42,140 bases of DNA from Oscillospiraceae bacterium. GTDB lineage: Bacteria; Bacillota; Clostridia; Oscillospirales; Ruminococcaceae. Each line of letters starts with the position of its first letter. Position 1 is the stretch's first letter. This document shows, piece by piece, positions 15,020-42,140 of this stretch. Both the position numbers and the translations under genes were made by a program. Location: NCBI GenBank assembly GCA_017460955.1, contig JAFTZY010000020.1, forward strand, positions 1 to 42,140, in the 5' to 3' direction. Under the pieces are notes generated by a model. The model had not been told where the DNA came from. It saw nothing but the letters and a program-made list of their open reading frames with translations, and ran no database searches.

Positions 15020-15048
15020 TTGTCGGAAATCCCAGTTTCTGGTATAAT
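15020..15048 (+). promoter_or_regulatory. Promoter of the dockerin-protein gene
   Basis: TTGTCG (15020-15025) and TATAAT (15043-15048) are 17 bp apart with TGG before the -10. Confidence 0.75.
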
Positions 15049-15095
15049 GGAAACAGATCATCTGCTATACGGCAGACAGAAAGGGTTTTTTGTAC

Positions 15096-15875
15096 ATGCG
15101 TATTTCAAGACTGTTTTCCGTACCGGTCGCAGCAGCGATGCTCCTGGCCGGGATCTCCGTTATGCCCACCGGGGCGGCATCCGAGGGGGAGGGCACCAGG
15201 GTCCTGCTGGCCGGGTCCTTCACCGGCGGCTGGTCCGCGGCTGCTGCCAACGACGGAAACAGCGTCACCGTCAATGAAGACGGCACCTATACCATCGAAT
15301 TTAATGCTTCCAAGGTCGGCACCATGATCGATTCCACATGGACACTGGGCCTCAAGACACTGGACCTGGATATCTGGAGCTATACCGGAGTCAGCAAGGA
15401 GGACATCGGGGAGGATGACTTTGCGCAGATGTTGGAGGATGCCGGTATCGTTTTCAGGGTGGATTCCGTGAAGATCTCCGGCGAGGAGAAGCTCACGGGC
15501 GAATCCACGGTGATCCTGGACGATGACGGCCAAAACCTTCGGATCAACATCTACAACATGTGGACCAGCCCACAGACCGCCATCGTGGACGGTATGCAGA
15601 AATTCAACGGACCGCTGGAGGTGACCTTCACGCTGGCGCTGGGCGATCCGGATGCCGGCACGGACCCTGCCGTCACCCTCTGGGGCGATGCGGACGGGGA
15701 TAACGACTGCGACATCATCGATGTCATTGCCGTGAACAAGGACCAGCTCGGCTCCGCCATGCTCGATGCACAGGGCGCTGTGAACGCGGACGTGAACCGC
15801 AGCGGCACCCTCGAATTCGCCGACGCCGTCCTCATCATGAAGTCCCTTGTGGATCTGGTGACCTTGCCAGTATAA
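15096..15875 (+). CDS. Secreted dockerin-containing protein with an unassigned N-terminal module
   Basis: The 259-residue product has a signal peptide (about residues 1-28), one beta-rich module of about 165 residues (aromatic and Asn-rich; SFTGGWSAAAANDGNSVTV near its start), and a C-terminal type I dockerin from about residue 196. The dockerin has a first calcium loop GDADGDNDCDIID and a second loop ADVNRSGTLEFADA, and ends IMKSLVDLVTLPV. The module looks like a carbohydrate-binding or cohesin-like sandwich, but I cannot name a family. ATG 15096 is used; a TTG two codons upstream is possible. The dockerin nearly matches that of the adaptor scaffoldin at 36584-37399, so both may plug into the same cohesin. 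Confidence 0.85.
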   Translation: MRISRLFSVPVAAAMLLAGISVMPTGAASEGEGTRVLLAGSFTGGWSAAAANDGNSVTVNEDGTYTIEFNASKVGTMIDSTWTLGLKTLDLDIWSYTGVSKEDIGEDDFAQMLEDAGIVFRVDSVKISGEEKLTGESTVILDDDGQNLRINIYNMWTSPQTAIVDGMQKFNGPLEVTFTLALGDPDAGTDPAVTLWGDADGDNDCDIIDVIAVNKDQLGSAMLDAQGAVNADVNRSGTLEFADAVLIMKSLVDLVTLPV

Positions 15876-17616: not shown

Positions 17617-17997
17617 TTAAACGGGCAGCGTTACCAGATCCACAAGCGACTTCATGATGCCGATCTCTGCCGTGGTCAGTGCGGTGCAGCCGCAGAACGC
17701 CATTTCGTTAATGACCGTAACGCTGTCCGGGAGCCACACGTCGGTGATCTCGGTGCAGTTCCAGAAGGCATCCTCGCCCACCTTCGTCACGGGAACGCCC
17801 CCCACCGTGGCTGCGACGCCCACACCGCCAGCAATGGAGCCCTTGTGCCCCGTCACCTCCGCATGGTCGCTGTACACGGTGTAGACGATGTCATCCTGCG
17901 TAACGGTCGTGCCGTCGGCAGATAGCACGGGCAGGGGACTTACCGCCGTCATCACGGCGAGTGCAGCTGCTGCCAGAAAACTGAAAAAGCGTTTCAT
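17617..17997 (-). pseudogene. Short BspA-type LRR protein ending in a dockerin vestige (deletion remnant)
   Basis: The 126-residue product has a signal peptide (KRFFSFLAAAALAVMTAVSP), a short beta segment (DIVYTVYSDHAEVTGHKGS) and less than two LRR_5 repeats (VGGVPVTKVGEDAFWNC, GCTALTTAEI). It then switches directly to GIMKSLVDLVTLPV, which matches the last residues of the dockerins at 15096-15875 and 36584-37399. The calcium loops are missing, so it cannot dock. The simplest reading is an internal in-frame deletion in an LRR-dockerin gene. ATG 17997 has AAGGAGGGA upstream, and a promoter is intact, so a small secreted product may still be made. Confidence 0.7.
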
Positions 17998-18035
17998 AAA
18001 GCTCCCTCCTTGAAGTTGTATATGCTTCCTCCTAC

Positions 18036-18064
18036 ATTTTAGCACGGCCTGACAGAAAATGCAA
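18036..18064 (-). promoter_or_regulatory. Promoter of the truncated LRR gene
   Basis: On the minus strand, TTGCAT (18059-18064) and TAAAAT (18036-18041) are 17 bp apart with GTGC before the -10. The arrangement resembles that of the large LRR gene at 22464-22494. Confidence 0.75.
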
Positions 18065-18084
18065 GCAAAGGGCACAAAGGGACG

Positions 18085-18191: not shown

Positions 18192-21100
18192 TCAGCGCTC
18201 GATCCCGAAATACTCATAGATGTCCTTCGTTCCCTTGGCACCGCGGTAGGCGGCATAGCGCAGGATAAAGGAAGCATCGTTGGCATTGACCGCGCTGTTC
18301 TTCCGGTCCACATTGGCCGCAAGCATCTGGGTCTCGGTGAGACCGGAATCACGCTTGGCACCGATGCGGGCTGCGGCCATGAGCACGACGGCTGCGTCAT
18401 TGGCATTGATCTTGCCGTCGTTGTTCACGTCACCGAGCAGGTAGTCCTCGGACGGTGCATTCGGATCCTTGACGGTGATGCCGCCGTCCTGCCAGATGAC
18501 AAGTCCGTCCTCCAGATAGTTGATCGATTCATAATAGTTGGTCCACCGCTCGCCCTCTGTCAGATGCTGGATGGTGAACACATCGCCGATCTCCAGCGTC
18601 TCCGGGAGCGTGATGAGGAGCGTCACAAGCTCGTCCGGTACTCTGGCCGTTGTGCTTGCGGCGGCGAACCGGAAGATATTGTCGTTCAGGGTGACGGAGG
18701 AGGAGAAGCCCGGTACCCTTGCAGAGGGATCATAGTGTGCATTCACACGGGCATCGGCCTCGATCTGGAACTCCATGGCGGTGACCGGCGCACTGCCCTC
18801 GGCGGCACGGACATGGACCTCCACGGTCGTCCCTGCCTGGTCGGGTGTTACTTCAAGATTGTCCACCGTGACAAGGATCGTGCCCGGTTCCGCAGTCGCG
18901 CCCTCTGTCGGGGCCTCGGTGGGAGCCTGCGTGGGTTCCTCAGTCGGGGCATTGGTCAGGCCTTCGGTGGGATCCTCTGTCGGTGTCTCTCCGGTGGCAA
19001 CGATCTTGATCGCGCCGTTTGTCCATGTGATATTGCTGTACTCGCCCGACTGATAGCTGCCCCACAGGTGCGGCTTGGCGATCTGCGGGAGATATTCGAT
19101 GGTATACACATCACCGGCGGCAGCATCGGCGGGCAGGGCCACGGCGATCGTGATGACATCGGTCATCTTGACGGCCTCGTTCGAAGTGCCAAGGCACCAG
19201 AAGGTCGTGTCGTCAGCATAGCTGGACGAAAAGCTGAACGTCCTATAGGTCCGGGGCATGTACTGGTCGAGGATCTCGAGCCTGCTGTCACAGGCGATAC
19301 CGAACTCGAAATAGCCGATCTCCGGCGCATCCTCTCCAAGGTACACGGGGATGTAGACATTCCCACCGATCTGATCGGCGGGGATCTCTACGGTGCCGAC
19401 CGTGACAGCAACTGTCCTGCCATCACCCTGCGTCGGCTCTTCCGTCGGTTCCTGCGTGGGCTCCTCGGTGGGGGCCTCGGTGGGCTCCTCGGTGGGGGCC
19501 TCCGTGGGCTCTTCCGTACCGTCGGTCACGACGATGCAGCCGTCCTGCCATGTGACAGGGTAGTGCGTAGAAATGGTCATATCCGACCAGATCTCCGGGT
19601 AGTCCACATCATGGGCGATCTCAAAGCGGTCACCGACAGCGATGTCGGCGGGGAGGGTGAACCGAAGCTCCGTGATGTTGTCAAACGCTCTGGCACTGCT
19701 TTTTGCGTAGGCGATGAGCAGGGTATTCTCTCTGGACACAACGTTCAGGCCAATGCCGTCATAGCTGTTAAGGGTCAGGCGGCTGTCATAGGTGATGCGA
19801 TACTCAAAGCTCGTCAGCTCCGCACTGCCCTCGGCAAGTGCGATGTTGACGGTCACCTCCTTGCCGGCATCCTCGGGGCTGACCTTGATCTGGTCGATGA
19901 GGACGGTCACGGTATCCCCGGCAGGGACGCGGGTCTCCCCCTCGGTGGGTTCCTCGGTGGGCGTCGGTGCATCGATGTCCACAAAGGGGATGCTGTTTTC
20001 CTCGGCATAGGTCTGGGCGTAGGAGCCTGCCTTGCCATAGATGGTGACAATGCCGGTTTCCTTGAAAACATTGGTACCGATGGAGGTCACCGATGCGGGG
20101 ATCACGATCTTTTTAAGGGCATAGCACGAGGAGAAGGCGCCGTCGCCGATCTCCGTTACGGTATCGGGAACGGTGAACTCGGTCAGGCTCGAGCATCCGG
20201 TAAAGGCATAATCGGGGATCGTGGTGATATTGGCTTCAAACGTAAGATCCGACAGCTGCTGGCAGCCAAGGAAGGCGCCGGTCTCAAGGGTCGTGACGGA
20301 ATCCGGGACGGAAAGACTTGTCATTTTTTCACTGACCTGGAAGGCATACTGGCCGATCGTCGTGACCGGAACGTCCCCGAATGCAGGGAGGACCGTGCCG
20401 GAGGTCAGACTGTATTCGGAGATGAAGACCTTGACATAGGGAGTGCCGTCCGTGAAGTAGAGGACGTAGGTGATGTCGTCCACTGTGGTTTCGGCCGATA
20501 TAAAGCGGATCTCGTTTTCGATGGCATAATCCTGCACTGCAGAGCCGATCGCACCGCGGAGTGTGATGCCTTCGCAGGTACTGAAGGCACCCTCGGGGAT
20601 CTCGGTGACAGTTTCCGGAAGGTACAGGAACGTGATCAGGTCTTTCCGGAAGGCATCCTTCGCGATCGTCGTAACAGGCACGCTTACTGATTCGGGGACC
20701 GTGACGCTGTACAGGCTTTTCGTGACGCCGACGATCTCGGCATGGTCCTCATAGATACGGTAGGCGATTCCTTCCACAAGGGCATCGTAGGCCACGAAGG
20801 GGATGTTGTTTTCCGTGGCATAGGTCTCGGCAGCGGAGCCGGCGGTGCCGTAGATGATCAGCTCGTCGCAGCCGTCAAAGGCACCCTCGCCAATCTCGGT
20901 GACGGATGCCGGGATGTTGACGACGGACAGGCTCGTACCGGCAAAGGCACGGGCACCGATGGACACGAGCGTATCCGGGAGCGTGACATAGTTGAGCTTC
21001 GTGCAGGCAGCGAACGCCTCGTCGCAGATCTTCGTGACGGGGACATCCTCCACGTTGTCTTTGAGCGTCGTGTAGGTCAGAGTTTTGTCTGCAGCGGTCA

Positions 21101-22415
21101 CCCAGGCCTCGTCCCCATGGATCGCATAGGTGATGGAGCTGTATGTGACCTTACGCCCCTCTTCTGTCGGCGCCTCAGTGGGTGCCTCCGTCGGCGCCTC
21201 GGTGGGTGCCTCGGTGGGTGCCTCCGTCGGCGGCTCGTCAAGGGAGACAAAGTTCAGGCCGTGCTCCTGTGCGTAGGTGTGTGCTGTGGATTCCCAGTAG
21301 CCGTGGATGGTAATGTCGTATACTATGTATCCGAAAGCATCGGAGTCCAGCACGGTCTCCGGATTGAGCAGTGTGATGTCGGTCAGGGAGGTGCATTCTT
21401 CAAATACATAGCTGCCCAGGGAGGTGACGGATTCCGGCAGGGTGATCTCCGTCAGTGCCGAGCAGCCGGTAAAGCAGCTGCCGCCGATCGTCTCCACTGC
21501 ATCGGGGAGCGTGATCCCGGTCAGCGCGCTGCATGAGGAAAAGCAGCGGCTTTCAAGTGCCGTCACGGTAGAGGGGAGCGAGACGTTTACCAATGCGTTG
21601 CAGCCGGAGAAAGCAGATTCGGGGATCGTCGTGATGCCCTCCCCGATGGTGACACTGGTCAGGCCGGTGCAGTCGTCGAAGACATATTCGGAGAGCACGG
21701 CACTGCCGGGGATCTCGATCGCCTGGAGCGATGTGCAGTCCTCAAACGCATACTCATCGATCAGGGTGATCCCGTCACCGATCGTGACATGCTCGAGCGC
21801 ACTGCATCCCAGGAACATGTATTCTCCGATGGTCCCGACCGAGCCCGGGATGTCGATCCCGGTCAGGGAGGTGCAGCTCTGGAACACTCCACTGCCAAAG
21901 CCGGAAGCGCCCTCCTCGATGGTCACATCGGTGAGCACTTCGCAGTCGTAGAAGGCGCTGTCGCCGACGGAGGTGAGGGATGCCGGGAGGGTGATCGACT
22001 CCAGTGATTCGCACACGAAGAAGGCTTTCTCCCCGATCTCTGTAACGGAATCCGGGATAATGACCTCCCGGAGCGCCGGGCAGTTCCGGAAGGCTCCATC
22101 CCCGATGACCGTGACGGTATCCGGGAGCGTCACGGTCTCAAGCTCGGTAAGCCCTCTGAAGGCATCCGTCACAGTCGTGACCGGCACGCCCTCAACGGTC
22201 TCGGCGACCTCTATGCTGGTCCTGTCGTATACGGTGACCGCCCAGACCGATGCGTGGTCGTCATAGACCTCGTACTCGATGCCGTCCACCTCTACGTTCG
22301 AGATGTATTCGGATGCCTGTGCTGTCAGCATAGGCTGCGAAAGCGGCAGTGCCGGGACGAACCCTGCAAAGACCGCGATGGCAGACACGGCTGCCAGGAA
22401 ACGTTTGAAATGCAT
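18192..22415 (-). CDS. Large secreted BspA-type LRR protein with three cohesin-like modules and a dockerin
   Basis: The 1407-residue protein has a signal peptide (residues 1-35). Two blocks of BspA/LRR_5 repeats (about 70-395 and 420-805; units like AFxGCTALTxITLPxSVTxIG) are split by a PTEAPTEAP linker. Three beta modules of about 130-150 residues follow (near 825, 990 and 1170), joined by PTEEPTEAP linkers. A dockerin closes the protein (from about 1325: YLLGDVNNDGKINANDAA and a second loop with NANDASFILRYAAYRG). The beta modules share the cohesin pattern: an opening VTV strand, YDSRL-type strand, LP..AGD, and closing VTWQDGxIxV. I call them cohesin-like with moderate confidence. ATG 22415 follows AAAGGAG. 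The promoter spacer is a T16 tract. Confidence 0.85.
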   Translation of the reverse strand: MHFKRFLAAVSAIAVFAGFVPALPLSQPMLTAQASEYISNVEVDGIEYEVYDDHASVWAVTVYDRTSIEVAETVEGVPVTTVTDAFRGLTELETVTLPDTVTVIGDGAFRNCPALREVIIPDSVTEIGEKAFFVCESLESITLPASLTSVGDSAFYDCEVLTDVTIEEGASGFGSGVFQSCTSLTGIDIPGSVGTIGEYMFLGCSALEHVTIGDGITLIDEYAFEDCTSLQAIEIPGSAVLSEYVFDDCTGLTSVTIGEGITTIPESAFSGCNALVNVSLPSTVTALESRCFSSCSALTGITLPDAVETIGGSCFTGCSALTEITLPESVTSLGSYVFEECTSLTDITLLNPETVLDSDAFGYIVYDITIHGYWESTAHTYAQEHGLNFVSLDEPPTEAPTEAPTEAPTEAPTEAPTEEGRKVTYSSITYAIHGDEAWVTAADKTLTYTTLKDNVEDVPVTKICDEAFAACTKLNYVTLPDTLVSIGARAFAGTSLSVVNIPASVTEIGEGAFDGCDELIIYGTAGSAAETYATENNIPFVAYDALVEGIAYRIYEDHAEIVGVTKSLYSVTVPESVSVPVTTIAKDAFRKDLITFLYLPETVTEIPEGAFSTCEGITLRGAIGSAVQDYAIENEIRFISAETTVDDITYVLYFTDGTPYVKVFISEYSLTSGTVLPAFGDVPVTTIGQYAFQVSEKMTSLSVPDSVTTLETGAFLGCQQLSDLTFEANITTIPDYAFTGCSSLTEFTVPDTVTEIGDGAFSSCYALKKIVIPASVTSIGTNVFKETGIVTIYGKAGSYAQTYAEENSIPFVDIDAPTPTEEPTEGETRVPAGDTVTVLIDQIKVSPEDAGKEVTVNIALAEGSAELTSFEYRITYDSRLTLNSYDGIGLNVVSRENTLLIAYAKSSARAFDNITELRFTLPADIAVGDRFEIAHDVDYPEIWSDMTISTHYPVTWQDGCIVVTDGTEEPTEAPTEEPTEAPTEEPTQEPTEEPTQGDGRTVAVTVGTVEIPADQIGGNVYIPVYLGEDAPEIGYFEFGIACDSRLEILDQYMPRTYRTFSFSSSYADDTTFWCLGTSNEAVKMTDVITIAVALPADAAAGDVYTIEYLPQIAKPHLWGSYQSGEYSNITWTNGAIKIVATGETPTEDPTEGLTNAPTEEPTQAPTEAPTEGATAEPGTILVTVDNLEVTPDQAGTTVEVHVRAAEGSAPVTAMEFQIEADARVNAHYDPSARVPGFSSSVTLNDNIFRFAAASTTARVPDELVTLLITLPETLEIGDVFTIQHLTEGERWTNYYESINYLEDGLVIWQDGGITVKDPNAPSEDYLLGDVNNDGKINANDAAVVLMAAARIGAKRDSGLTETQMLAANVDRKNSAVNANDASFILRYAAYRGAKGTKDIYEYFGIER

Positions 22416-22435
22416 ATACCAAAACTCCTTTCTGT

Positions 22436-24609: not shown

Positions 24610-24699
24610 TAGTTTGTAAACCTTCCCTTTGAAAAGTTTGTGACAAGAGGGGCTTGTTCACCGCCCATGCCGCCCTCGAAGATTTTTCCTCAAAACCAC

Positions 24700-24728
24700 T
24701 TGCTTTTTCCGGACAGTTACGTTATAAT
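24700..24728 (+). promoter_or_regulatory. Promoter of the LRR-Thr-rich-dockerin gene
   Basis: TTGCTT (24700-24705) and TATAAT (24723-24728) are 17 bp apart, divergent from the pckG promoter about 90 bp away. Confidence 0.8.
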
Positions 24729-24765
24729 GGAATTGATAGAAATATCAGAGGGAGGTAATACTATC

Positions 24766-26940
24766 ATGAACACATTCAAAAAGCTGGCTGCCTTTGTCAC
24801 AGCCGGCATGCTGTGCCTGTGCTGTGCCTTTCCGGGCACCATGCCGCCGCTCGTGCGGCCGGGCACCGGCATCACTGCATCCGCAGCCGAGCTGCGGATC
24901 GTCGGGGATGACCTGATCGTCCTGATCTACTCCGACCATGTGGAGGTCATCGGCTATAACGATACCGCCACATCCGCCACCGTCGTCAGCTCCGTGGACG
25001 GACTGCCCGTGACTGCGCTTGCCGATCAGGCCTTCTACTACTGCACCAAGCTCGTCTCGGTCACCCTGCCCAGCTCCGTCACCAAGATCGGCGCCAAGGC
25101 CTTCTATGCCTGCAACGCCCTGACAACGCTGACGCTGACCAACTCCGTCACCAGCATCGACCCCTCCGCCTTCTACCACACCCGCCTGAGCGATGTCTAT
25201 TTCCAGGGGACCAAGGCGGAATGGATGGCCATTTCCGGCGTGGGACAGAATGACGAGCTCAATGCCGCCACCATCCACTGCCTGGACGGCGACATCTCCG
25301 GCGGCCAGACCGTGAGCACCACCGCACCGCCCGCCACCGCACCGCCCGCCACGACCGTGGCTGCTACGACTGCACCGCCTGCCACGACGGCTGCCACCAC
25401 CACAACAGCCCCCGTGACTACGACCGCTGCGACCACGACAACAGCCCCCGTGACCACGACCGCTGCCACCACCACAACAGCCCCCGTGACCACGACTGCT
25501 GCGACCACCACCACAGCCCCCGTGACCACAACGGCTGCGACGACAACAACCGCCCCCGTGACCACGACCGCTGCGACCACCACCACAGCCCCCGTGACTA
25601 CGACCGTCGCCACGACCACGGCAGCACCCGCAACGACGACCGTTTCCACGACACAGGCCGTTTCCACCACACAGGCGGAGACCGTGCCCGTCGGCAGCGT
25701 CATCGGCAATGCCGGACTGCGCGGCCAGGGCGACAGCTACTCCTACTGGAGCAGTGCTCAGTACTATTCCGTCACCCCGACCGATGCGCAGGTCACCGGG
25801 GACGGCACCTACACCGTGTCCTGGAGCGTCTCCGCCGCCGGTGCGCCGCAGGTGCTCTACCTGGAGATCGCCCCCGCGGGGAGCCTCAAGTTCAACACCG
25901 CCTCCATGCCGAACCTCTCCGTCACCGTCCAGTCCGTGAGCATTGACGGGAATGCCGTCAGCCTTGGCAGCAACGCGGATGCCTACGTCCTGAACGACAG
26001 CTCCGGCACGGCCAAGGTCTACCTGACGGACAACTGGTACCAGAACGGGAACCAGTCCCTCGGCGTGACCTCCCGCATTTCCAGCCGGATCTCCCTGACG
26101 TTCCGGCTCTCCGGCACCGGCAGCACGGCACAGGAGCCCACGGAAGCCCCGACCCAGCCGCCGACCCAGGCACCCACAGAAGCCCCCACCCAGCCGCCGA
26201 CACAGGCACCGACCCAGGAGCCCACGGAAGCGCCTACCCAGCCGCCGACACAGGCACCCACCCAGCCGCCGACACAGGCACCCACCCAGCCGCCGACACA
26301 GGCTCCTACCCAGCCGCCGACACAGGCTCCGACGCAGCCGCCGACACAGGCTCCCACACAGGAACCGACACAGGAGCCCACCCAGGCACCGACAGTCACC
26401 GGTGTCCGGCTCTCCGTGGTGAGTCAGCCGAGCAAGACGGCCTACAAGACCGGGGAGAGCTTCTCCTCGGCGGGACTGACGGTGAGTGTCTGGTACACCT
26501 ACAGCGACGGGGCCGTGGTGCAGCGCTATGAAGCGGTCTCGCCGGACAGCTATCCCGAGCAGTTCCGGCTCTCGGGCTTTGACAGCAGCAAGGCCGGCAC
26601 CTGCACGGTCACGATCCGGTATGCGGAGAACGGCAATCAGGCGGAGACCTCCTTCAACGTGACCGTGACGGACGCGCAGACCGACAGCTACCTGCTCGGC
26701 GATGTCAACAACGACGGCAAGATCAATGCCAATGATGCCGCGCTCGTACTCCGGGAGGCCGCCGCAGTCGGCGCGAAGAAGCCCTCCATTCTCACGCAGG
26801 TACAGCGCGAGGCCGCAAACATTGACCTCAACAGTGCAGTCAATGCCGTTGATGCCAGCTACATCCTGCGCTATGCCGCCTACCGGGGCGCCAAGGGGAC
26901 CAAGACCTTCTATGAATACCTTGGCAGAAGCAATCCATAA
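24766..26940 (+). CDS. Secreted LRR protein with Thr-rich stalk, unassigned beta module, Ig-like domain and dockerin
   Basis: The 724-residue product has a signal peptide (about 1-38) and a short BspA-type LRR region (about 50-170). A Thr-rich stalk of 12-residue ATTTTAPVTTTA repeats (about 181-305) follows. A beta module (about 306-455; NAGLRGQGDSYSYWSSAQYY near its start) comes next, then a PTQAPTQPP linker (455-545), a bacterial Ig-like group 3 domain (about 546-636; SKTAYKTGESFSSAGLTVSV) and a dockerin (640-724; YLLGDVNNDGKINANDAA, NAVDASYILRYAAYRGAK). The dockerin is the same subtype as in the large LRR protein. ATG 24766 follows GGGAGGTAA. The beta module resembles the N-terminal module of the 15096-15875 protein in style only. 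Confidence 0.87.
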   Translation: MNTFKKLAAFVTAGMLCLCCAFPGTMPPLVRPGTGITASAAELRIVGDDLIVLIYSDHVEVIGYNDTATSATVVSSVDGLPVTALADQAFYYCTKLVSVTLPSSVTKIGAKAFYACNALTTLTLTNSVTSIDPSAFYHTRLSDVYFQGTKAEWMAISGVGQNDELNAATIHCLDGDISGGQTVSTTAPPATAPPATTVAATTAPPATTAATTTTAPVTTTAATTTTAPVTTTAATTTTAPVTTTAATTTTAPVTTTAATTTTAPVTTTAATTTTAPVTTTVATTTAAPATTTVSTTQAVSTTQAETVPVGSVIGNAGLRGQGDSYSYWSSAQYYSVTPTDAQVTGDGTYTVSWSVSAAGAPQVLYLEIAPAGSLKFNTASMPNLSVTVQSVSIDGNAVSLGSNADAYVLNDSSGTAKVYLTDNWYQNGNQSLGVTSRISSRISLTFRLSGTGSTAQEPTEAPTQPPTQAPTEAPTQPPTQAPTQEPTEAPTQPPTQAPTQPPTQAPTQPPTQAPTQPPTQAPTQPPTQAPTQEPTQEPTQAPTVTGVRLSVVSQPSKTAYKTGESFSSAGLTVSVWYTYSDGAVVQRYEAVSPDSYPEQFRLSGFDSSKAGTCTVTIRYAENGNQAETSFNVTVTDAQTDSYLLGDVNNDGKINANDAALVLREAAAVGAKKPSILTQVQREAANIDLNSAVNAVDASYILRYAAYRGAKGTKTFYEYLGRSNP
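25385..25612 (+). repeat. 36-bp coding tandem repeat (Thr-rich stalk)
   Basis: About six units encode ATTTTAPVTTTA. Synonymous variation between units (ACA/ACC/ACG) is present, so the array is not freshly expanded. Confidence 0.8.
26140..26395 (+). repeat. 24-bp-type coding tandem repeat (PTQAPTQP linker)
   Basis: Repeated CCGACACAGGCACCCACCCA-like units encode the Pro-Thr-Gln linker between the beta module and the Ig-like domain. Confidence 0.75.
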
Positions 26941-29237: not shown

Positions 29238-29279
29238 GAAAACGACGGGACCCCATGATGTTACTTAGGAGGCGTTTTT

Positions 29280-31364
29280 ATGAAATACCGCATTGCCGCC
29301 GCATTTACGGCATTATCCCTGCTGACGGGGACGGCAGCTGTGCCGGGACTGCTCCCGGAGCAGGCAGTCCGCACCGCCGCCGCAGACAGGGGCACCTACC
29401 TCTGGTTCACCTATTACGAGTCCGAGGGCGGGATCGTCATCAGCCGGTGTGACACATCCGCAACGGGCGTTGTGATCGTCCCGGAGGAGATCGACGGTCT
29501 GCCGGTGACACGGCTGTCGCCGGGTGCCTTTGCCGACTGCACGAGTATCCTCACCGTCATGCTCCCGGAGGGCCTGACGGAGATCACCGCCAAGACCTTC
29601 AGCAACTGCACACGTCTCGTCTCCGTGAACCTGCCCGACTCGCTCACCGCGATCGGCACGGAGGCCTTCCTTGGCTGCACGGCACTGTCCTCCCTGACAC
29701 TTCCCGGGAGCCTCACAAGCCTTGGACCGAACTGCTTTTCCGGCTGCACGGCACTGTCCTCCCTGGCGCTTCCCGGGAGCCTTACCAGTCTTGGAACGAG
29801 CTGCTTTACGGGGTGTACATCGCTCGGGGAATGCACCCTCCCCGACGGCATCACGCGGATCCCGAACGCCTGCTTCAAGGACTGCACGGGCCTTGGACAG
29901 GTCACCCTTCCGGCGGGCTGCACCGAGCTTGGCGGCTCTGCCTTCAGCGGCTGCGCGGAGCTGACGCAGATCTCCCTCCCCGACGGCATCACGCAGATAC
30001 CGGTCGCCTGCTTCGAGGGCTGCACGGGCCTCAAACAGATCACCCTTCCGGCGGGCTGCACGGGGATCGGCAGCTCTGCCTTTGAGGGCTGCACGGGCCT
30101 CACACAGATCACCCTTCCCGACAGCATCACCGAAATCGGCAGCGCTGCCTTCCAAGGCTGCACGGGCCTCACACAGATCACCCTCCCGGCGGGGATCACC
30201 GGGATCGAAGCCGATACCTTTTCCGGCTGCAAGGGGCTCACACAGATCCGCATCCCGGAGAGCGTGACCGTCATCGGTACCGGTGCCTTTGAGCACTGTG
30301 AGGCGCTCACGGAGGTCACACTGCCGGAGGGGCTGACGGAGATCGGGCCGTATGCGTTCGGCGATTGCAGCAGCCTCACGTCGCTCACGGTCCCGGAGAC
30401 CGTCACGTCCATCCGGGAGCAGGCATTCCGTTACTGCACTGCCCTGCAGCTTGTGACGATCCTCGCTCCCGGCTGCACCATCGACAGTGCCTCGGATACA
30501 ATCCCGTGCGGCATCTGCGGGTATATCGGCTCCACGGCGCATAGCTATGCCACCAAAAACGGCCGACCCTTCCATGATCTGGAGGACCGGGGATGCAGAG
30601 AGCTGATCGCAAGCGGCACCTCCGGGACTGTCACCTGGCGGCTCTACGGGGACGGTGAGGAGGACTGCGAGCTGCGCATCGGCGGCAGCGGCGCCCTGAC
30701 CTCGGACAGCATATGGAAGTCCTACAAGAGCCGGATCACCCGCATCACGGTCCAGGACGGGATCACGTCGATCGGGGACAATGTGTTCCGGGAGTATGGA
30801 CCGCTGACCCATGTGACGATCGCCGGGAGCGTCAAGGAGATCGGACAGTATGCCTTCGGCGAAGCGCAGATCGGTGCGCTGCATCTTGGCAGCGGCGTGG
30901 AAACGCTGGGAATGTACAGCTTCGGAAACGTACAGGCGGAGGACATTGTCCTGCCAGCAAGCGTGCATTGGGTGAATCAGAAGGCGCTGTCGTTTTTTTG
31001 GGATGCCAAGCGTGTGCTGTTCCTGAATCCCAAATGCACTGTCAGCTGCTACGGTACGCCGCCGATCGGTGCCTATCCGGACGGCTACCCCGGGTGCAAC
31101 GGCGGACCGGTCGTGTACGGATATGCGGGCTCCTATGCGGAATCCTTTGCCTATGAATTTCTCTATCGTTTCCAGCCGGTCACGCAGGGGGATGTGGACC
31201 TGAGCGGGGAAACGGGCGTGCTGGATGCCGTGGCACTGCAAAAGCACCTTGTCCGGGAGAAGTCCCTGGACACCCTCGGTGCCGCCATGGCGGATCTGAA
31301 CGGTAACGACACGGTGGATGTGACGGACCTTGTCCTGCTCAAACAACTGCTGACGCAAAAGTGA
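29280..31364 (+). CDS. Secreted BspA-type LRR protein with C-terminal dockerin
   Basis: The 694-residue product has a signal peptide (about 1-36) and many LRR_5 repeats from about residue 50 to 425, several nearly identical (GCTGLTQITLP units of 23 residues). A spacer domain (SGTVTWRLYGDGEEDCELRI near 440) leads into further degenerate LRRs to about 600. A divergent dockerin closes the protein (about 632-694; GDVDLSGETGVLDAVALQKHL and ADLNGNDTVDVTDLVLLKQLL). This dockerin subtype differs from those of the other LRR proteins. ATG 29280 is 7 nt after AGGAGG. BspA-type LRRs usually bind proteins or surfaces; the ligand here is unknown. Confidence 0.88.
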   Translation: MKYRIAAAFTALSLLTGTAAVPGLLPEQAVRTAAADRGTYLWFTYYESEGGIVISRCDTSATGVVIVPEEIDGLPVTRLSPGAFADCTSILTVMLPEGLTEITAKTFSNCTRLVSVNLPDSLTAIGTEAFLGCTALSSLTLPGSLTSLGPNCFSGCTALSSLALPGSLTSLGTSCFTGCTSLGECTLPDGITRIPNACFKDCTGLGQVTLPAGCTELGGSAFSGCAELTQISLPDGITQIPVACFEGCTGLKQITLPAGCTGIGSSAFEGCTGLTQITLPDSITEIGSAAFQGCTGLTQITLPAGITGIEADTFSGCKGLTQIRIPESVTVIGTGAFEHCEALTEVTLPEGLTEIGPYAFGDCSSLTSLTVPETVTSIREQAFRYCTALQLVTILAPGCTIDSASDTIPCGICGYIGSTAHSYATKNGRPFHDLEDRGCRELIASGTSGTVTWRLYGDGEEDCELRIGGSGALTSDSIWKSYKSRITRITVQDGITSIGDNVFREYGPLTHVTIAGSVKEIGQYAFGEAQIGALHLGSGVETLGMYSFGNVQAEDIVLPASVHWVNQKALSFFWDAKRVLFLNPKCTVSCYGTPPIGAYPDGYPGCNGGPVVYGYAGSYAESFAYEFLYRFQPVTQGDVDLSGETGVLDAVALQKHLVREKSLDTLGAAMADLNGNDTVDVTDLVLLKQLLTQK

Positions 31365-36446: not shown

Positions 36447-36583
36447 AACAGTAAGTAGATATAGGGTAAGTCATGCCATTCCCCTGTAAAACTACTGTGT
36501 TATTTGAGGAATGCGCGCAAAATATTCCTTGTGCGCATACTCGCAAATCTCTGTATTTTCATTATTATGAAGGAGGAAAGAAG

Positions 36584-37399
36584 ATGAAAGTAAGGAAAAT
36601 TGTTGCCGCACTGGCAGCCGTCTCCATGCTGGCAGCAGTTTCGGCCCAGGCTGTATCTGCAGCAGGTGAGACCGTAACCATCAAGGGCGCACAGGTGAGC
36701 GCCGCCGCAGGGGAAGCTTTCAGCCTGACGGTGGAGCTGTCCGACGTGCCCAGCACCGGTATCAATGCACTGGAGTTCAATCTGGCCTATGACACAAGCG
36801 TGGTTACAGTAACTGGCGTGACTGCCGGTCCCGTTGCAAGCAAGGGCGCTGACGATGTAGAGGGCTATGCAGATGCTCCCTCGTTCTATGCAAACTATGC
36901 AACGGCAGGTTCTATTGACGTGACCTATTCTACGGGTCTTGAGGACAGCAATTACTGGATCACGGAGAACGGTGTGTTCCTGACCGTGACCGGTACTGTC
37001 AATGCCGATGCACAGGCCGGCGATTCTACGGATTTCACCATTGGCGCGATCGGCCGCAATGTGAACGACGAGTCCAGCGATGTCAACACCGACATCATCG
37101 CAGCAGCCATCACCAGCACAGCAGTGACCACCTACGGCACCACTCCGGTAGCCGGCAAGGTGACCGTTGCAGGCGACTCCCCGGAGCTTGAGGTAACGCT
37201 GTGGGGCGACGCTGACGTGGACGGCGACTGCGACATCATTGACGTTATCTGCGTCAATAAGGACCAGCTCGGTTCCTACACCCTCGATGCACAGGGCATC
37301 AAGAATGCAGACGTTGACCAGAACGGCGTTATGGCATTCGCAGATGCAGTGAATATCATGAAGTCCCTCGTAGACCTCGTGACCCTGCCTGTTGCATAA
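36584..37399 (+). CDS. Adaptor scaffoldin: one cohesin and one dockerin (ScaC-like)
   Basis: The 271-residue secreted protein has a signal peptide (about 1-27; MLAAVSAQAVSA). One cohesin (about 28-200) follows, with VTIKGAQVSAAAGEAFSLTV, then INALEFNLAYDTSVVTVTGV and a closing GKVTVAG strand. The dockerin (from about 207) has WGDADVDGDCDIID and NADVDQNGVMAFADA and ends IMKSLVDLVTLPVA. This is the architecture of ScaC, the adaptor that widens the set of enzymes a scaffoldin can hold in R. flavefaciens. ATG 36584 follows GAAGGAGG; the frame open to 36473 contains no ribosome site. It is the first gene of the sca-like cluster. Confidence 0.88.
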   Translation: MKVRKIVAALAAVSMLAAVSAQAVSAAGETVTIKGAQVSAAAGEAFSLTVELSDVPSTGINALEFNLAYDTSVVTVTGVTAGPVASKGADDVEGYADAPSFYANYATAGSIDVTYSTGLEDSNYWITENGVFLTVTGTVNADAQAGDSTDFTIGAIGRNVNDESSDVNTDIIAAAITSTAVTTYGTTPVAGKVTVAGDSPELEVTLWGDADVDGDCDIIDVICVNKDQLGSYTLDAQGIKNADVDQNGVMAFADAVNIMKSLVDLVTLPVA

Positions 37400-37514: not shown

Positions 37515-39299
37515 ATGAAGAAGGTAATTTCTGCACTGACAGCTGCTGCTATGTGTGCAAGCATGACCGCAAGTGTCATGTCCGTAATCGCAGCGACCGA
37601 TGCTGCATCCGTCAGCATGTACCTCAAGCCTGCTACTGAGGTAGAGGGCGCAACCGTTACCGGCGATGCCGCAAGCGGCTACACCATCACCTTTGCTTCC
37701 GCAGAGGCAGCAAGAGGCGCACGTTTCGTCGTTGGTGACTATGTCAAGATGCCGACCGATGGTCATGATGTCATCCTCCTGGGCGGTATGGTACAGTCCA
37801 TGAGCGCTGATGTACAGATCCCGGCTACACTTGAGAACGGCGGCACCAGCCCGATCGAGCCCAAGGTAAGCTACTACACTGAGGACCAGTCCTTCACCTT
37901 CACCGACCTGTTCGGTGCTGAGCAGACTGTGACCACCAAGCTCTTCCCGCACGCTCTGTCCTACATCAAGCGCAACAAGCTGACCGGTACCGGTGCATTT
38001 GCAACAGCTCACAGTGCAAACTACGACAATACCTGGGATTATGACGGCTATGACCGTATGTCCTTCGTATACACCTACGGTTCCGACCAGAGCACCTATA
38101 CCGATTGGGATTACAAGGCAGGCGGCGCATTCCTGACCACCGAGTCCGATGTATATCCTTTCGCAGCATTCGAGGTCGTTCTCTCCGATTCCATCGCAGA
38201 GGGCGAGTATGAGATCAAGTCCCTCGACGGCTTCAAGCATCCGAATGCAAACTATAACACCAGACCCGACGGCACCAAGGCTGCTGCTCTGGTGACCCTG
38301 TCCGATCAGGAGATCGAGCTCGATGCAAGCCAGCTGTCCGGCCTGAAGATCGTTGTTGGCGACGTTCAGCCGGAAGAGACTGATGCTCCGACCGATGAAC
38401 CCGAGGTGGAGACCGATGCTCCCGAGGTGGAGACCAGCGCTCCGACTGAGGCTCCCGATCCGACCGAGCCCGCTACCTCCGCTCCTCAGCCCGAGGGCTT
38501 TGCACTCGGCCTGAACGACGTGAAGGTTGCCAAGGCCGGCGATGAGGCTGTTCTGGAAGTTATTGTCAACGATCCGGTTCCGTTCAACTCCTTCACAGCA
38601 AACCTGCTGATCGATGGCATGAGCGCAGCTGATTTCGCAGCCGCTAACGGCGGTATTCCGGTTGACGCAGAGATGGGCGAGGTTTATGAGAAGCTCACCT
38701 CCACCGCCTTCAATCCTGAGGTCGGTAAGTTTGCAGCAACCCTGCAGGCTGACGAGGATGTGACCGGTGCTACCGGCGACGTTCTGCTGACCATCTTCTT
38801 CGATACCACCGGCATGAAGGACGGTACTTACACGCTGAGCCTGGACGCCATCAAGATCGGTGACCAGAACAAGAACGAGTGGACCGAAGGCAACGGCCTG
38901 AGCACCTTCACCGGCACCCTGACCATCGGCGATGTAACGGATGAGCCGACTGAGGCAGAAGAACCGACCGATGCTCCCGAGCCGACCGATGCTCCGACCG
39001 ACGCTCCCGAGCCGACCGATGCACCCACTGAGGTGCTTGTAGGCGATTACATCTACGGTGACGTAAACAAGAACAAGACCGTTGAGCTCGTTGATATCGT
39101 AATGCTCAACAGATACCTGACCGGCGCAGATCAGGATCTGGATGATTATCAGGTAGTCGTAGCAAACTGCTCTCGTCCTGACGGCGAGTCCGATGAGGCT
39201 ACCACTAAGGATAACCTGTCCGGTGAGGACTCCCTGGCTATCCTGAGATACCTCATTGGCCTGGAAGAGAAGCTGTGGACTGCCACAACCCATCAGTAA
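37515..39299 (+). CDS. ScaA-like scaffoldin: N-terminal module, one recognised cohesin, C-terminal dockerin
   Basis: The 594-residue secreted protein has a signal peptide (about 1-27) and a beta-rich N-terminal module (about 30-280; GARFVVGDYVKMPTDGHDVI) that I cannot assign. An acidic TDAPTDEPE linker follows, then a cohesin (about 327-475; FALGLNDVKVAKAGDEAVLE, NSFTANLLIDG) and a second PTDAPEPTDA linker. The dockerin (from about 512) has YIYGDVNKNKTVELVDIVML and NLSGEDSLAILRYLIGLEE. That dockerin differs from those of the adaptor and the LRR proteins, as expected if it docks to a distinct class of cohesin on ScaB. AAAGGAA lies about 12 nt before ATG 37515. Confidence 0.88.
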   Translation: MKKVISALTAAAMCASMTASVMSVIAATDAASVSMYLKPATEVEGATVTGDAASGYTITFASAEAARGARFVVGDYVKMPTDGHDVILLGGMVQSMSADVQIPATLENGGTSPIEPKVSYYTEDQSFTFTDLFGAEQTVTTKLFPHALSYIKRNKLTGTGAFATAHSANYDNTWDYDGYDRMSFVYTYGSDQSTYTDWDYKAGGAFLTTESDVYPFAAFEVVLSDSIAEGEYEIKSLDGFKHPNANYNTRPDGTKAAALVTLSDQEIELDASQLSGLKIVVGDVQPEETDAPTDEPEVETDAPEVETSAPTEAPDPTEPATSAPQPEGFALGLNDVKVAKAGDEAVLEVIVNDPVPFNSFTANLLIDGMSAADFAAANGGIPVDAEMGEVYEKLTSTAFNPEVGKFAATLQADEDVTGATGDVLLTIFFDTTGMKDGTYTLSLDAIKIGDQNKNEWTEGNGLSTFTGTLTIGDVTDEPTEAEEPTDAPEPTDAPTDAPEPTDAPTEVLVGDYIYGDVNKNKTVELVDIVMLNRYLTGADQDLDDYQVVVANCSRPDGESDEATTKDNLSGEDSLAILRYLIGLEEKLWTATTHQ

Positions 39300-39397: not shown

Positions 39398-42140
39398 ATG
39401 AAGAGATTAATTTCTGGCTTGACTGCATTCTGCATGTGCGCTTCCATGGTTGTGGGTACTCTCCCGGCTTCTGCATTGAACACCGGCTCGACCGAGGAAA
39501 ACGTGATCACTGCCGGCACGCCTTCACTGGGTGTGAAGGATGTAGCTGTTGCTTCCGGTGAGGAGGCAGCGATCGAGGTCACGATCTCCGATGCGGTGCC
39601 GCTCAACTCCTTCACGCTCAATCTTCTGATCGACGGGGAGAATGTTGACACCTTCACCGCTGCCAACGGCGGTACGGGCGCAGATGCAGAAGTGGGTCCT
39701 GTTTATGAGAAGCTGACAAGCACGGCGTTCAATCCGGAGGCAGGTAAGTTTGCAGCAACCCTGCAGGCAGATGAGGATGTGACCGGCTCCGACGGTGATA
39801 CGCTGCTGGTATTCTACCTCGACACCAAAGGGATCCAGGACGGCAAGTACACACTTTCTTTGGAAGGCGTCAAGCTGGGCGACAGTAGCCGCAATGAGTG
39901 GACTACGGAAGCAGGCACTCTGACCACCACCACAGGTATCCTGACGATCGGTGATGTTCCGGAGGATGCAACAACAGCCCCGACACCGACGCAGGCTCCG
40001 ACACAGGCCGCCACCCAGGCTGCGACCTCCGCTCCGACACCCGAGGGCTTTGCCGTCGGTCTGAAGGACGTGACCGTTGCAAAGTCCGGTGATGAGGCCA
40101 TTATCGAGGTCATTGTCAATGATCCGGTACCGTTCAATTCCTTCACACTGAATCTCCAGATCGACGGCAAGTCGCTCGATGCCTTTGGCGGCACCGGCAC
40201 GGATGCCGAGGTCGGCGAGGTTTACGAGAAGCTCTCGAACAGTGCCTTCAACCCGGCAGTAGGTAAGTTTGCTGCCAACTACCAGGCAGACGACGATGTG
40301 GCCGGTTCCACCGGTGACACGCTCCTGGTCATCTATTTTGACACCACCGGCGTACCGGACGGCGAATACGTCATGAGCCTTGACGGTGTCAAGATCGGTA
40401 ATTCCAACAGAGACGAGTGGACGGTAGGCAACGGCCTGAGCACCTTCACCGGCATCCTGAAGATCGGTGATACGGACACGCCCACCGAGGCTGAGGAGCC
40501 GACACAGGCACCGACAGTCGCTCCGAGCGGCATGTCCCTTGGTCTGAATGACGTGACTGTCAAGGCCGGCGAGGAAGCCGTGATCGAGTTCGCCATCAAG
40601 AATCCCGAGCCGCTCAATTCCTTCACCGCAACGCTGCTCATCGACGGCAAGTCCGTAGATGTATTCGGCGGTACCGGTACGGATGCCGAGGTAGGCACGG
40701 TTTACGAGAAGCTCTCGAACTCCGCTTTCAACCCCGCAGTCGGCAAGTTCGCAGCCAACTACCAGGCAGATGATGACGTAGCCGGCGCTGACGGCGACGT
40801 TCTGCTCAACTTCTACTTCGATACCACCGGTGTTCCTGCCGGCGAGTACACCATGAGCCTTGAGGGCGTCAAGATCGGTAACTCCAACAGAGATGAATGG
40901 ACCGTTGAGGCAGGCACCATGTCCACCTTCACCGGCATTCTGACCATCTTGGATGAGGAGCCGACCGATGAGCCCACCGAAGAGCCGACGGAAGCTCCCA
41001 CCGAGGAGCCGACGGATGAACCGACCGAGGCTCCCACTGAGGCTCCCACCGATGCACCGACTGAGGCTCCTACCGAGGCGCCCACGGATGCACCGACCGA
41101 GGAACCCTTCACGCATGTTACCCAGGATACCGACGCACAGTGGGTGATCGGTACCACAACTGTTGAGGCCGGCGAGGATGCTGTCATCAGCGTTTCCGTC
41201 AACGGCGACACTGACGGTCTGAACAGCTATATCGTAAGACTTGCACAGGATGCAGGCCCCGTCCTCAAGAGCGCAGAGCAGGCAACTGCTTATGCAGAGC
41301 TTGGCTTCGAGAAGAACACCGACAACCTGGTATTCGGTGGTACGAACTTCAGTACCAAGGAGAATGTAACAGGCGACGGCGATGTCATTACCCTGACCTT
41401 CTCGACTGACGACCTGGAGCCCGGCATCTACAATGTGACCTTCGTTGACGATACTGTCGAGATCTACAATGTGGAAATGGTACAGCTCGTACCCAAGACG
41501 CAGAACGGCTGGATCGAGATCGTAGCGCCCGAGACCACACCGGAGGAGACCGACGCTCCGACGGAAGCACCCACCGAGGCTGAGACCGAAGCTGAGACGG
41601 AGGATATCGTTGCTCCTGAATGGATCATCGGTACCGCAACCGTTGAGGCCGGCGAGGATGCCACCATCACCGTAGCCGTGACCGGCGATACCACCGGCCT
41701 GAACAGCTACATCGTCAAGCTTTCCCAGGATGCAGGCCCTGTCCTCAAGAGCGCAGAGCAGGCAACCGCATACGCCGAGCTGGGCTTCGAGAAGAACATG
41801 GAAGCACTGACCTTTGGCGGCACGAACTTCAGCACCAAGACCAATGTCACCGGTGAAGGCGATGTCATCACCCTGACCTTTGGTACGGACGATCTGGAGC
41901 CCGGCATCTACAATGTCGTCTTTGTTGACGATACCGTTGAGATCTACACTGTTGGCATGAATCAGGTCGTTCCGAACACTACCAACGGCTGGATCGAGAT
42001 CGTAGCACCCGAGACCACACCGGAGGAGACTGACGCTCCGACCGAGCCCGAGACCGACGCTCCGACTGAGCCCGAGACCGACGCTCCGACCGAGCCCGAG
42101 ACTGAGGCACCGACCGAGCCCGAGACTGAGGCACCGACCG
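39398..42140 (+). CDS. ScaB-like multi-cohesin scaffoldin, 5' part (runs off the window)
   Basis: The frame is open from ATG 39398 (AAAGGAAA upstream) to the window end: 914 codons without a stop. After a signal peptide (about 1-27) come three cohesins of one class (about 41-186, 217-363, 378-522; LGLNDVTV start, NSFTLNLLIDG, VYEKLSNSAFNPAVGKFAAN). These resemble the cohesin of the upstream ScaA-like protein. After a long PTDEPTEAP linker come two cohesins of another class (about 580-708 and 740-870; WIIGTATVEAGEDATITVAV, QDAGPVLKSAEQATAYAELG) that are nearly identical to each other. The last 130 bp encode a PTEPETDA linker, so more modules follow outside the window. Confidence 0.9.
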   Translation, partial: MKRLISGLTAFCMCASMVVGTLPASALNTGSTEENVITAGTPSLGVKDVAVASGEEAAIEVTISDAVPLNSFTLNLLIDGENVDTFTAANGGTGADAEVGPVYEKLTSTAFNPEAGKFAATLQADEDVTGSDGDTLLVFYLDTKGIQDGKYTLSLEGVKLGDSSRNEWTTEAGTLTTTTGILTIGDVPEDATTAPTPTQAPTQAATQAATSAPTPEGFAVGLKDVTVAKSGDEAIIEVIVNDPVPFNSFTLNLQIDGKSLDAFGGTGTDAEVGEVYEKLSNSAFNPAVGKFAANYQADDDVAGSTGDTLLVIYFDTTGVPDGEYVMSLDGVKIGNSNRDEWTVGNGLSTFTGILKIGDTDTPTEAEEPTQAPTVAPSGMSLGLNDVTVKAGEEAVIEFAIKNPEPLNSFTATLLIDGKSVDVFGGTGTDAEVGTVYEKLSNSAFNPAVGKFAANYQADDDVAGADGDVLLNFYFDTTGVPAGEYTMSLEGVKIGNSNRDEWTVEAGTMSTFTGILTILDEEPTDEPTEEPTEAPTEEPTDEPTEAPTEAPTDAPTEAPTEAPTDAPTEEPFTHVTQDTDAQWVIGTTTVEAGEDAVISVSVNGDTDGLNSYIVRLAQDAGPVLKSAEQATAYAELGFEKNTDNLVFGGTNFSTKENVTGDGDVITLTFSTDDLEPGIYNVTFVDDTVEIYNVEMVQLVPKTQNGWIEIVAPETTPEETDAPTEAPTEAETEAETEDIVAPEWIIGTATVEAGEDATITVAVTGDTTGLNSYIVKLSQDAGPVLKSAEQATAYAELGFEKNMEALTFGGTNFSTKTNVTGEGDVITLTFGTDDLEPGIYNVVFVDDTVEIYTVGMNQVVPNTTNGWIEIVAPETTPEETDAPTEPETDAPTEPETDAPTEPETEAPTEPETEAPT
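40955..41110 (+). repeat. Thr-Pro-Glu linker repeats inside the ScaB-like gene
   Basis: Tandem 12-15 bp units encode PTEEPTEAPTDAP. A similar array (PTEPETDA) runs from about 42030 to the window end. Confidence 0.75.

Follow-up and report, generated by a model that had tools for sequence, protein, structure and literature searches.

Ruminococci fuse leucine-rich repeat (LRR) proteins to dockerins, and the only LRR scaffoldin that we found described is ScaI of Ruminococcus flavefaciens FD-1 (ZP_06145744), which is listed in Table 1 of PMC5301203 with the architecture LRR-Coh-Doc (Coh, cohesin; Doc, dockerin) and with a group-4a dockerin that binds ScaE. According to the same source, ScaH, ScaF and ScaI all attach to the ScaE anchor through group-4 dockerins (ScaI less tightly), Gly-Arg is the recognition dyad of the R. 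flavefaciens group-4 dockerins, and a group-2 LRR-Doc protein also binds the ScaE cohesin; the co-expression screen gave the cohesin of ScaI itself in insoluble form, and it has no column in the part of the table covered here. In R. flavefaciens, dockerin group 4a has the largest number of LRR proteins (10 of 28; PMC2930009), the structure of the ScaH dockerin with the ScaE cohesin shows dual binding (PMC12484212), and dockerin proteins with one or two cohesins have been described (PMC4081043). In the literature searched, which took in few subscription papers, no LRR scaffoldin with three cohesins was found. Here we analyse a candidate of this kind, P0001, a 1407-residue protein encoded in a 42,140-nucleotide stretch of DNA from an Oscillospiraceae bacterium (GenBank assembly GCA_017460955.1, contig JAFTZY010000020.1, positions 1 to 42,140), hereafter called the window.

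The reading that we prefer, at a probability of about 0.62, is that P0001 is a secreted cell-surface adaptor scaffoldin of the ScaI type with three cohesins, docked on an anchor beside the cellulosome, in a bacterium of the Ruminococcus group whose genome encodes a cellulosome. The presence of LRRs, three cohesin-like modules and a dockerin in one protein is confirmed, since P0001 is a single uninterrupted open reading frame (ORF) on the minus strand (18195-22415, with the stop at 18192-18194); it starts with the ATG at 22415, and an alternative TTG 20 codons upstream also lies in the open frame. The minus strand is taken as the coding strand because its guanine-cytosine (GC) content by codon position (0.57/0.46/0.76) resembles that of the neighbouring phosphoenolpyruvate carboxykinase gene (0.54/0.40/0.78), while the opposite-strand ORFs at this locus show the reversed pattern. 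Pfam LRR_5 matches the protein in six stretches (4.5e-135, 444 bits), which places the repeats among the BspA-type LRRs, and Pfam PT matches the linkers. With cohesins and a dockerin in one chain that begins with a signal peptide (recognised by eye), P0001 has the composition of an adaptor scaffoldin, and the order of its modules (LRR, cohesin, dockerin) is that of the ScaI type.

The cohesin fold is a nine-stranded jelly roll. By sequence, the three beta modules B1, B2 and B3 are divergent type III-like cohesins. A profile built from these three modules only gave 10uv ("Cohesin domain number 2") as its best match in the PDB (E = 8.3e-10), followed by the ScaE-type cohesins 8ajy_A (2.3e-6) and 4iu2_A (2.7e-6) and then by other scaffoldin cohesins; of the 12 rows with E values up to 10, ten were cohesins or scaffoldin/anchoring proteins, the two unrelated ones being a phage tail fibre (0.15) and a Hoc-like protein (1.2). 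For the profile of a 30-member family of such modules, the top 12 of 14 PDB rows were of this same kind, nine of them at E < 0.001, led by 10uv (1e-14), 10uw (4e-14), the ScaE cohesin 2zf9 (4e-10) and 8ajy_A (7e-10). When the window's own modules were held out, a profile of 27 relatives still scored B2 at 85, B3 at 65 and B1 at 62 bits; of the shuffled modules, 1000 each were given and 925, 911 and 852 (2688 in all) were scored, none of them above 9.2 bits, and the LRR blocks and the dockerin came out at about zero. In the own genome the family profile matched B1 at 1.1e-29, a value to be read with B1 itself being a row of that profile. As a single sequence, B2 found 10uv at 1.2e-7 within the whole-protein query and at 2.5e-8 within a 484-residue query of the three modules. 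The first-pass annotation of this DNA had proposed cohesin-like modules, LRRs and a dockerin in one chain, and both the identity of the modules, as judged by sequence, and their union in one ORF, in a genome with a sca-like cluster, are borne out.

The C-terminus of P0001 carries duplicated calcium-binding repeats and, when isolated, matches Pfam Dockerin_1 at 27.0 bits (cut-off 22.9); within the whole protein the match is 19.5 bits, below the cut-off. Scoring of 150 of 214 candidates gave at least 138 dockerin matches at E ≤ 1 for the same genome, and 63 of its dockerin domains split clearly when scored with a profile grown from the P0001 dockerin: 31 lie at 89.5 bits or above, and 32 at 60.7 or below, two of these at 11.8 and 9.1 bits. 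In the own-genome stretches examined, NAxDA is present in both repeats of 30 of the 31 class dockerins and absent from the 32 others. In the PDB, the class profile had its best match in the ScaH dockerin 8ajy_B at 3.8e-16 (next match 2.7e-7). A contrast profile was made from 21 of the 32 other dockerins, the 11 left out being ScaC- or ScaA-like, second copies, or (five of them) built of differently ordered or odd repeats; it found type I dockerins of enzymes, from clostridia and others, and no ScaH dockerin in 50 rows. The P0001 dockerin is therefore group-4-like in being closest to the ScaH dockerin and in having symmetric repeats, and a plain enzyme-type dockerin was ruled out by this classification. 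LRR_5 was found in 14 of 30 class parents (P0001 left out) versus 6 of 29 parents of the other dockerins, and these profile comparisons put the P0001 dockerin in a symmetric, LRR-parent-rich class of its own genome.

Two further proteins of the window bear on the dockerins. The LRR protein at 29259-31361(+) (LRR_5, 403 bits) has an enzyme-class dockerin (28.7 bits), and LRRs thus occur with both dockerin classes in this genome. A 275-residue frame at 15048-15872(+) combines an unassigned domain with a C-terminal ScaC-like dockerin (LWGDADGDNDCDIIDV...; Pfam 17.5 bits, below the cut-off).

Candidates for an anchor, a primary scaffoldin and adaptors are all present in the same genome. A sca-like cluster with ScaC-, ScaA- and ScaB-like genes (Table 1) lies about 14 kb from the P0001 gene. 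The ScaA-like protein has no Pfam cohesin match and a dockerin match of 20.0 bits, and the ScaB-like protein has a Pfam cohesin match of 16.4 bits, both values being below the cut-offs. Two modules of the latter are 69-89% identical to modules on contig C52, which starts inside a cohesin frame (Pfam cohesin, 51.0 bits) and has at its end a pair of NANDA...GAK repeats with an insert and with NAxDA in each of the two, the same signature as in the dockerin class of P0001; judged from these identities, the C52 frame looks like the continuation of the ScaB-like gene, and the two contigs were kept separate. With the ScaB-like protein as a single-sequence query, the PDB yielded no cohesin but only a weak match of 9ufe to a linker stretch, while a profile of the modules of the cluster and of C52 found 4ums (1.6e-7) and ScaC 5lxv (3.8e-6). 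The putative anchor (C31:30364-31353) consists of a signal peptide, a cohesin, a linker, and SPKTG followed by a hydrophobic stretch and KKKD. A search of the genome with the Pfam sortase-anchor model gave one match above the cut-off, outside the known cohesin frames, and otherwise weak ones; we call the C31 protein ScaE-like because of its cohesin and SPKTG tail, and not because of a Pfam anchor match. Other cohesin proteins of this genome are lipoprotein-like (C37), Coh-Doc-Doc (C39) and Coh-Big-Doc (C36) in type. There is also a lipoprotein-like frame of 379 residues that stops in the middle of a cohesin match (C20:129287-129481; Pfam 34.6 bits, with model positions 1-62 of 139 covered).

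Members of the cohesin family were matched at E ≤ 0.001 in 38 of 38 genomes of the genus, mostly with a lipoprotein-like member and not P0001-type modules in the lead. The relatives were sampled through 21 stretches from 14 of 37 genomes, with the choice guided mostly by the length of the reading frames. In these, LRRs, one family cohesin each (versus three in P0001) and a dockerin occur together in six proteins from five genomes. All six have LRR_5 and Dockerin_1 above the Pfam cut-offs, and a signal peptide was seen by eye in five, with none visible in the L144 frame. Their order is Coh-LRR-Doc in four cases and, as in P0001, LRR-Coh-Doc in two (L144, L137). The P0001-dockerin profile scored the dockerins from G018 and G036 at 2.5e-5 to 3.6e-9 and the other three at 9e-23 or better. 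In G036, a Coh-Coh-Coh-Doc protein without LRRs adjoins one of the six. Among the matches listed for a genus search with the 484-residue three-module stretch, no row spans all three modules; the best relative, from G036, covers 250 of the 484 residues at 34% identity, the longest match about 319 residues at 32%, and many matches are to linkers. A cohesin tree was built from 51 rows (50 of them distinct) over 160 columns, and 20 of its 47 inner branches are starred. B1 groups with B3 as its sister (98/93), the partner of B2 is the Coh-Doc-Doc module of the own genome (97/85), B1-B3 are split from the ScaB-like cohesins (99/96), and cohesins of LRR proteins from other genomes fall into other groups than B1-B3. 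This topology fits internal duplication with shuffling, and a repeated coupling of LRRs to the cohesin family, with details made unsure by long branches. The protein with the tree sister of B2 (L051:2365-3750, contig C39, 462 residues) has two tandem dockerins, one of which is 86% identical to that of P0001 over 71 residues.

Two other architectures of the family were noted. In 36 of the 38 genomes the family is matched best by an ORF 192-338 residues long, and a lipobox-like motif (crude pattern) was seen in 21 of 23 of the relatives' ORFs, the misses being a frame cut by a contig end and one with LLCGC. The member in the own genome, a lipoprotein-like single-cohesin protein (L047:1247-1876, contig C37), lies beside a nadC-like gene (by eye), and such proteins are possibly membrane-anchored cohesins; a literature search by title found no paper on a protein of this kind. 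An 869-residue protein of another genome (L050:2388-4994, G022:C1) joins a papain-like peptidase region (C39-type by eye) and InlB-like repeats (by eye) to a cohesin of the P0001 module family and a dockerin, and it recalls the peptidase-like module of R. flavefaciens (PMC3573020).

With the modules, the dockerin class, a candidate anchor, a primary scaffoldin and candidate clients read from sequence, we infer the binding steps and the role of the LRRs as follows. P0001 would be exported via its signal peptide, and its dockerin would plug into a ScaE-like, sortase-anchored wall cohesin, the type of site that the ScaB-like scaffoldin would also use. Docking on the anchor is favoured because the ScaH dockerin, the best solved relative of the class, binds the wall-anchored ScaE cohesin, and dual binding may be possible since the two repeats are similar. 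The LRR blocks would be displayed as binding or adhesion surfaces, while as many as three dockerin proteins would be taken up by the three divergent cohesins; the likeliest clients are members of the LRR-rich dockerin class and not cellulases, which are expected on the ScaB-like cohesins.

Several observations weigh against this reading. PF00963, the Pfam cohesin model (cut-off 24.1 bits), scored B3 at 20.1 and B1 at 16.2 bits and did not match B2, and it thus passes its cut-off on none of the modules; this failure is unsurprising because ruminococcal Coh3 modules are reported to escape the InterProScan profiles and to have needed AlphaFold2 (PMC11557425). A profile-profile comparison (hhalign) with the ScaB- and ScaC-like cohesins of the own genome gave probabilities of 3.2 and 21.2, and this weak kinship of B1-B3 with ScaB-like cohesins was not taken as support; in the tree the long-branched ScaC-like cohesin is found on the side of B1-B3, and B2 too carries a long-branch flag. 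On the dockerin side, the lead of ScaH is smaller for the P0001 dockerin alone, in the whole-protein PDB query (1.3e-5 versus 0.011 for the next match), and the first repeat has Ala-Asn in place of the Gly-Arg dyad; the partner therefore need not be a ScaE-like cohesin, and may have co-evolved or changed. The enrichment of LRRs among class parents is borderline (Fisher p 0.054) and is suggestive only, because the contrast set is a non-random one, taken from the highest PF00404 matches, and because the ends of the stretches truncate some of its frames. PF00746 reaches no better than E 0.52 on the ScaE-like protein, for which no match to any Pfam family was obtained at E ≤ 0.01. Finally, in PMC5301203, most LRR-borne dockerins of R. 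flavefaciens bound no cohesin tested by microarray, and three group-1 LRR-Doc proteins took ScaA/ScaB cohesins.

Table 1. Features of the P0001 gene, other genes of the window and related proteins (positions refer to the window; numbers after a locus handle are positions in that locus)
Feature	Position	Strand	Basis or remark
P0001, LRR-Coh-Coh-Coh-Doc protein, 1407 residues	18192..22415	-	ORF, Pfam, codon-position GC
Shine-Dalgarno-like AAAGGAG, 9 bases upstream of ATG	22425..22431	-	Sequence
Putative signal peptide, residues ~1-35, cleavage near AQA/S	22311..22415	-	By eye
LRR block 1, BspA type, residues 36-395	21231..22310	-	Pfam LRR_5
(PTEA)n linker, residues 396-420	21156..21230	-	Sequence
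LRR block 2, BspA type, residues 421-820	19956..21155	-	Pfam LRR_5
Putative cohesin B1, residues 833-968	19512..19919	-	Held-out profile; B1-B3 profile vs PDB
PTEE/PTQE linker, residues 968-1000	19416..19514	-	Pfam PT
Putative cohesin B2, residues 999-1142	18990..19421	-	Single-sequence PDB match; profiles
PTE-rich linker, residues 1142-1177	18885..18992	-	Sequence
Putative cohesin B3, residues 1176-1316, sister of B1	18468..18890	-	Pfam below cut-off; profiles; tree
Dockerin, two similar NANDA...GAK repeats, residues 1317-1407	18195..18467	-	Pfam; class profile
LRR / Big_3 / dockerin protein	24640..26940	+	Dockerin 76% identical to that of P0001 over 72 residues; same class
ScaC-like Coh-Doc protein	36473..37399	+	Pfam cohesin 53.9 bits (2.9e-14); dockerin 15.6, below cut-off
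ScaA-like protein, UNK-Coh-Doc	37515..39299	+	Cohesin 61-69% identical to modules of next gene
ScaB-like multi-cohesin scaffoldin	39398..42139	+	Five modules seen; contig end cuts gene
LRR, cohesin and dockerin relatives: L143 (G019), L144 (G012), L137 (G017), L048 (G018)
LRR, cohesin and dockerin relatives in G036	L049:1264-3174; L128:2632-4344

To hypothesize further, P0001 could, as a multivalent hub, organise another surface complex next to the cellulosome, mostly without catalytic members, in which its cohesins bind orphan NANDA...GAK dockerins of the LRR type and so build a modular LRR adhesion coat on the anchor of the cellulosome. We regard this as a tentative and rather doubtful extension; if it were true, the P0001 dockerin could itself be among the clients, giving chains.

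It is unlikely, although several features would suit it, that B1-B3 have the cohesin fold but have lost dockerin binding, or never had it, and act as spacers or carbohydrate-binding sandwiches in what would then be an LRR adhesin with a dockerin. The modules are highly divergent (B1 is 25% identical to B2 and 38% to B3) and sit on long branches of the tree; none of them matches Pfam cohesin above the cut-off, and only six of the 30 family members reach E ≤ 0.1 with PF00963 (best 7.7e-4); and relatives occur alone as lipoprotein-like proteins or beside a peptidase-like region. Against this stand the presence of the family throughout the genus (mostly, as said, as lipoprotein-like members), the dockerin-binding ScaE cohesin among its closest solved relatives, and the many frames in which family modules and dockerins share one chain.

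A further reading, along the lines of the first-pass annotation, is a component of the cellulosome proper, with the P0001 dockerin in a ScaB-like scaffoldin and its cohesins taking carbohydrate-active enzymes. We find it quite improbable that the LRRs are brought into the cellulosome in this way, since the dockerin is nearer to the ScaH/group-4 wall-anchor class than to the enzyme class, its best solved relative likewise points to an anchor and not to enzyme cohesins, and the tree keeps B1-B3 apart from the ScaB-like cohesins. The picture is consistent with the proximity of the sca-like cluster, and with the group-1 LRR-Doc proteins of R. flavefaciens, which, together with ScaJ, ScaM and ScaO, bind ScaA/ScaB cohesins (PMC5301203, Table 1). 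Glycoside hydrolase (GH) families also speak for it to some degree, as there is one parent with GH10 and one with GH5 in the P0001 dockerin class (25 of 27 families shown); the parents of the other dockerins have GH5 (two parents), GH10, GH11, GH30, GH53 and pectate lyase (25 of 37 families shown).

That the beta modules are no cohesins at all, and have an immunoglobulin-like, carbohydrate-binding or other sandwich fold, is very improbable. Pfam Big_8 matches two of the 30 family members (best E 0.006), and as single sequences B1 reaches 10uv only at 0.23, behind poxin at 0.17, and B3 has no PDB match; however, the window-only and family profiles both have cohesins as their best PDB matches, and the held-out profile with its shuffles shows homology to the family. 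The Pfam and PDB profile searches thus led us to reject this fold assignment. An assembly chimera or a decayed gene, which the draft state of the assembly (84 contigs) and, just downstream, an LRR fragment that is broken and has the tail of a ScaC-type dockerin might suggest, can be dismissed as barely conceivable, given one open frame of 1407 codons with a Shine-Dalgarno site and host-like codon-position GC, and the recurrence of the same module set in other genomes. The fragment itself (17617-18075, minus strand) begins with a P0001-like signal peptide and LRR start and switches abruptly to the dockerin tail GIMKSLVDLVTLPV; it looks like a deletion fusion.

The three divergent cohesins of P0001 belong to a separate family, and since these sockets are visible in one genome together with candidate dockerins, a candidate anchor and a candidate primary scaffoldin, a small set of pull-downs would suffice to ask which partners the dockerins of LRR proteins have.

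Compared with the described systems, P0001 shares with ScaI the kinds of modules, their order and, as described in PMC5301203, a dockerin of the group that binds ScaE; ScaI has one cohesin versus three in P0001, and the two are likened by architecture and not by their sequences. ScaH, a Coh-Doc adaptor, has the closest solved dockerin (8ajy) with symmetric repeats in both proteins, but it has no LRRs, a single cohesin, and Gly-Arg where the first repeat of P0001 has Ala-Asn. The ScaE-type cohesins (2zf9, 8ajy_A, 4iu2) and 10uv/10uw ("Cohesin domain number 2/1", compared by title and sequence only) are the best solved relatives of B1-B3 and their family, although a ScaE-type cohesin sits at a sortase anchor, whereas B1-B3 share their chain with LRRs and a dockerin. 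Two R. flavefaciens scaffoldins, ScaJ (Coh-Coh-Doc) and ScaA (UNK-Coh-Coh-Doc), resemble P0001 in having several cohesins and a terminal dockerin, but no LRRs are named for them in the parts of the source covered here, where the ScaJ dockerin binds ScaA/ScaB cohesins and the ScaA dockerin binds ScaB cohesins 5-9. The claim that no scaffoldin of this design had been described does not hold, because ScaI and the six LRR, cohesin and dockerin proteins of the relatives rule out an unprecedented design; the LRR-Coh-Doc design is already known, and what P0001 adds to it is a trivalent form, which is new, in a genomic setting that allows tests.

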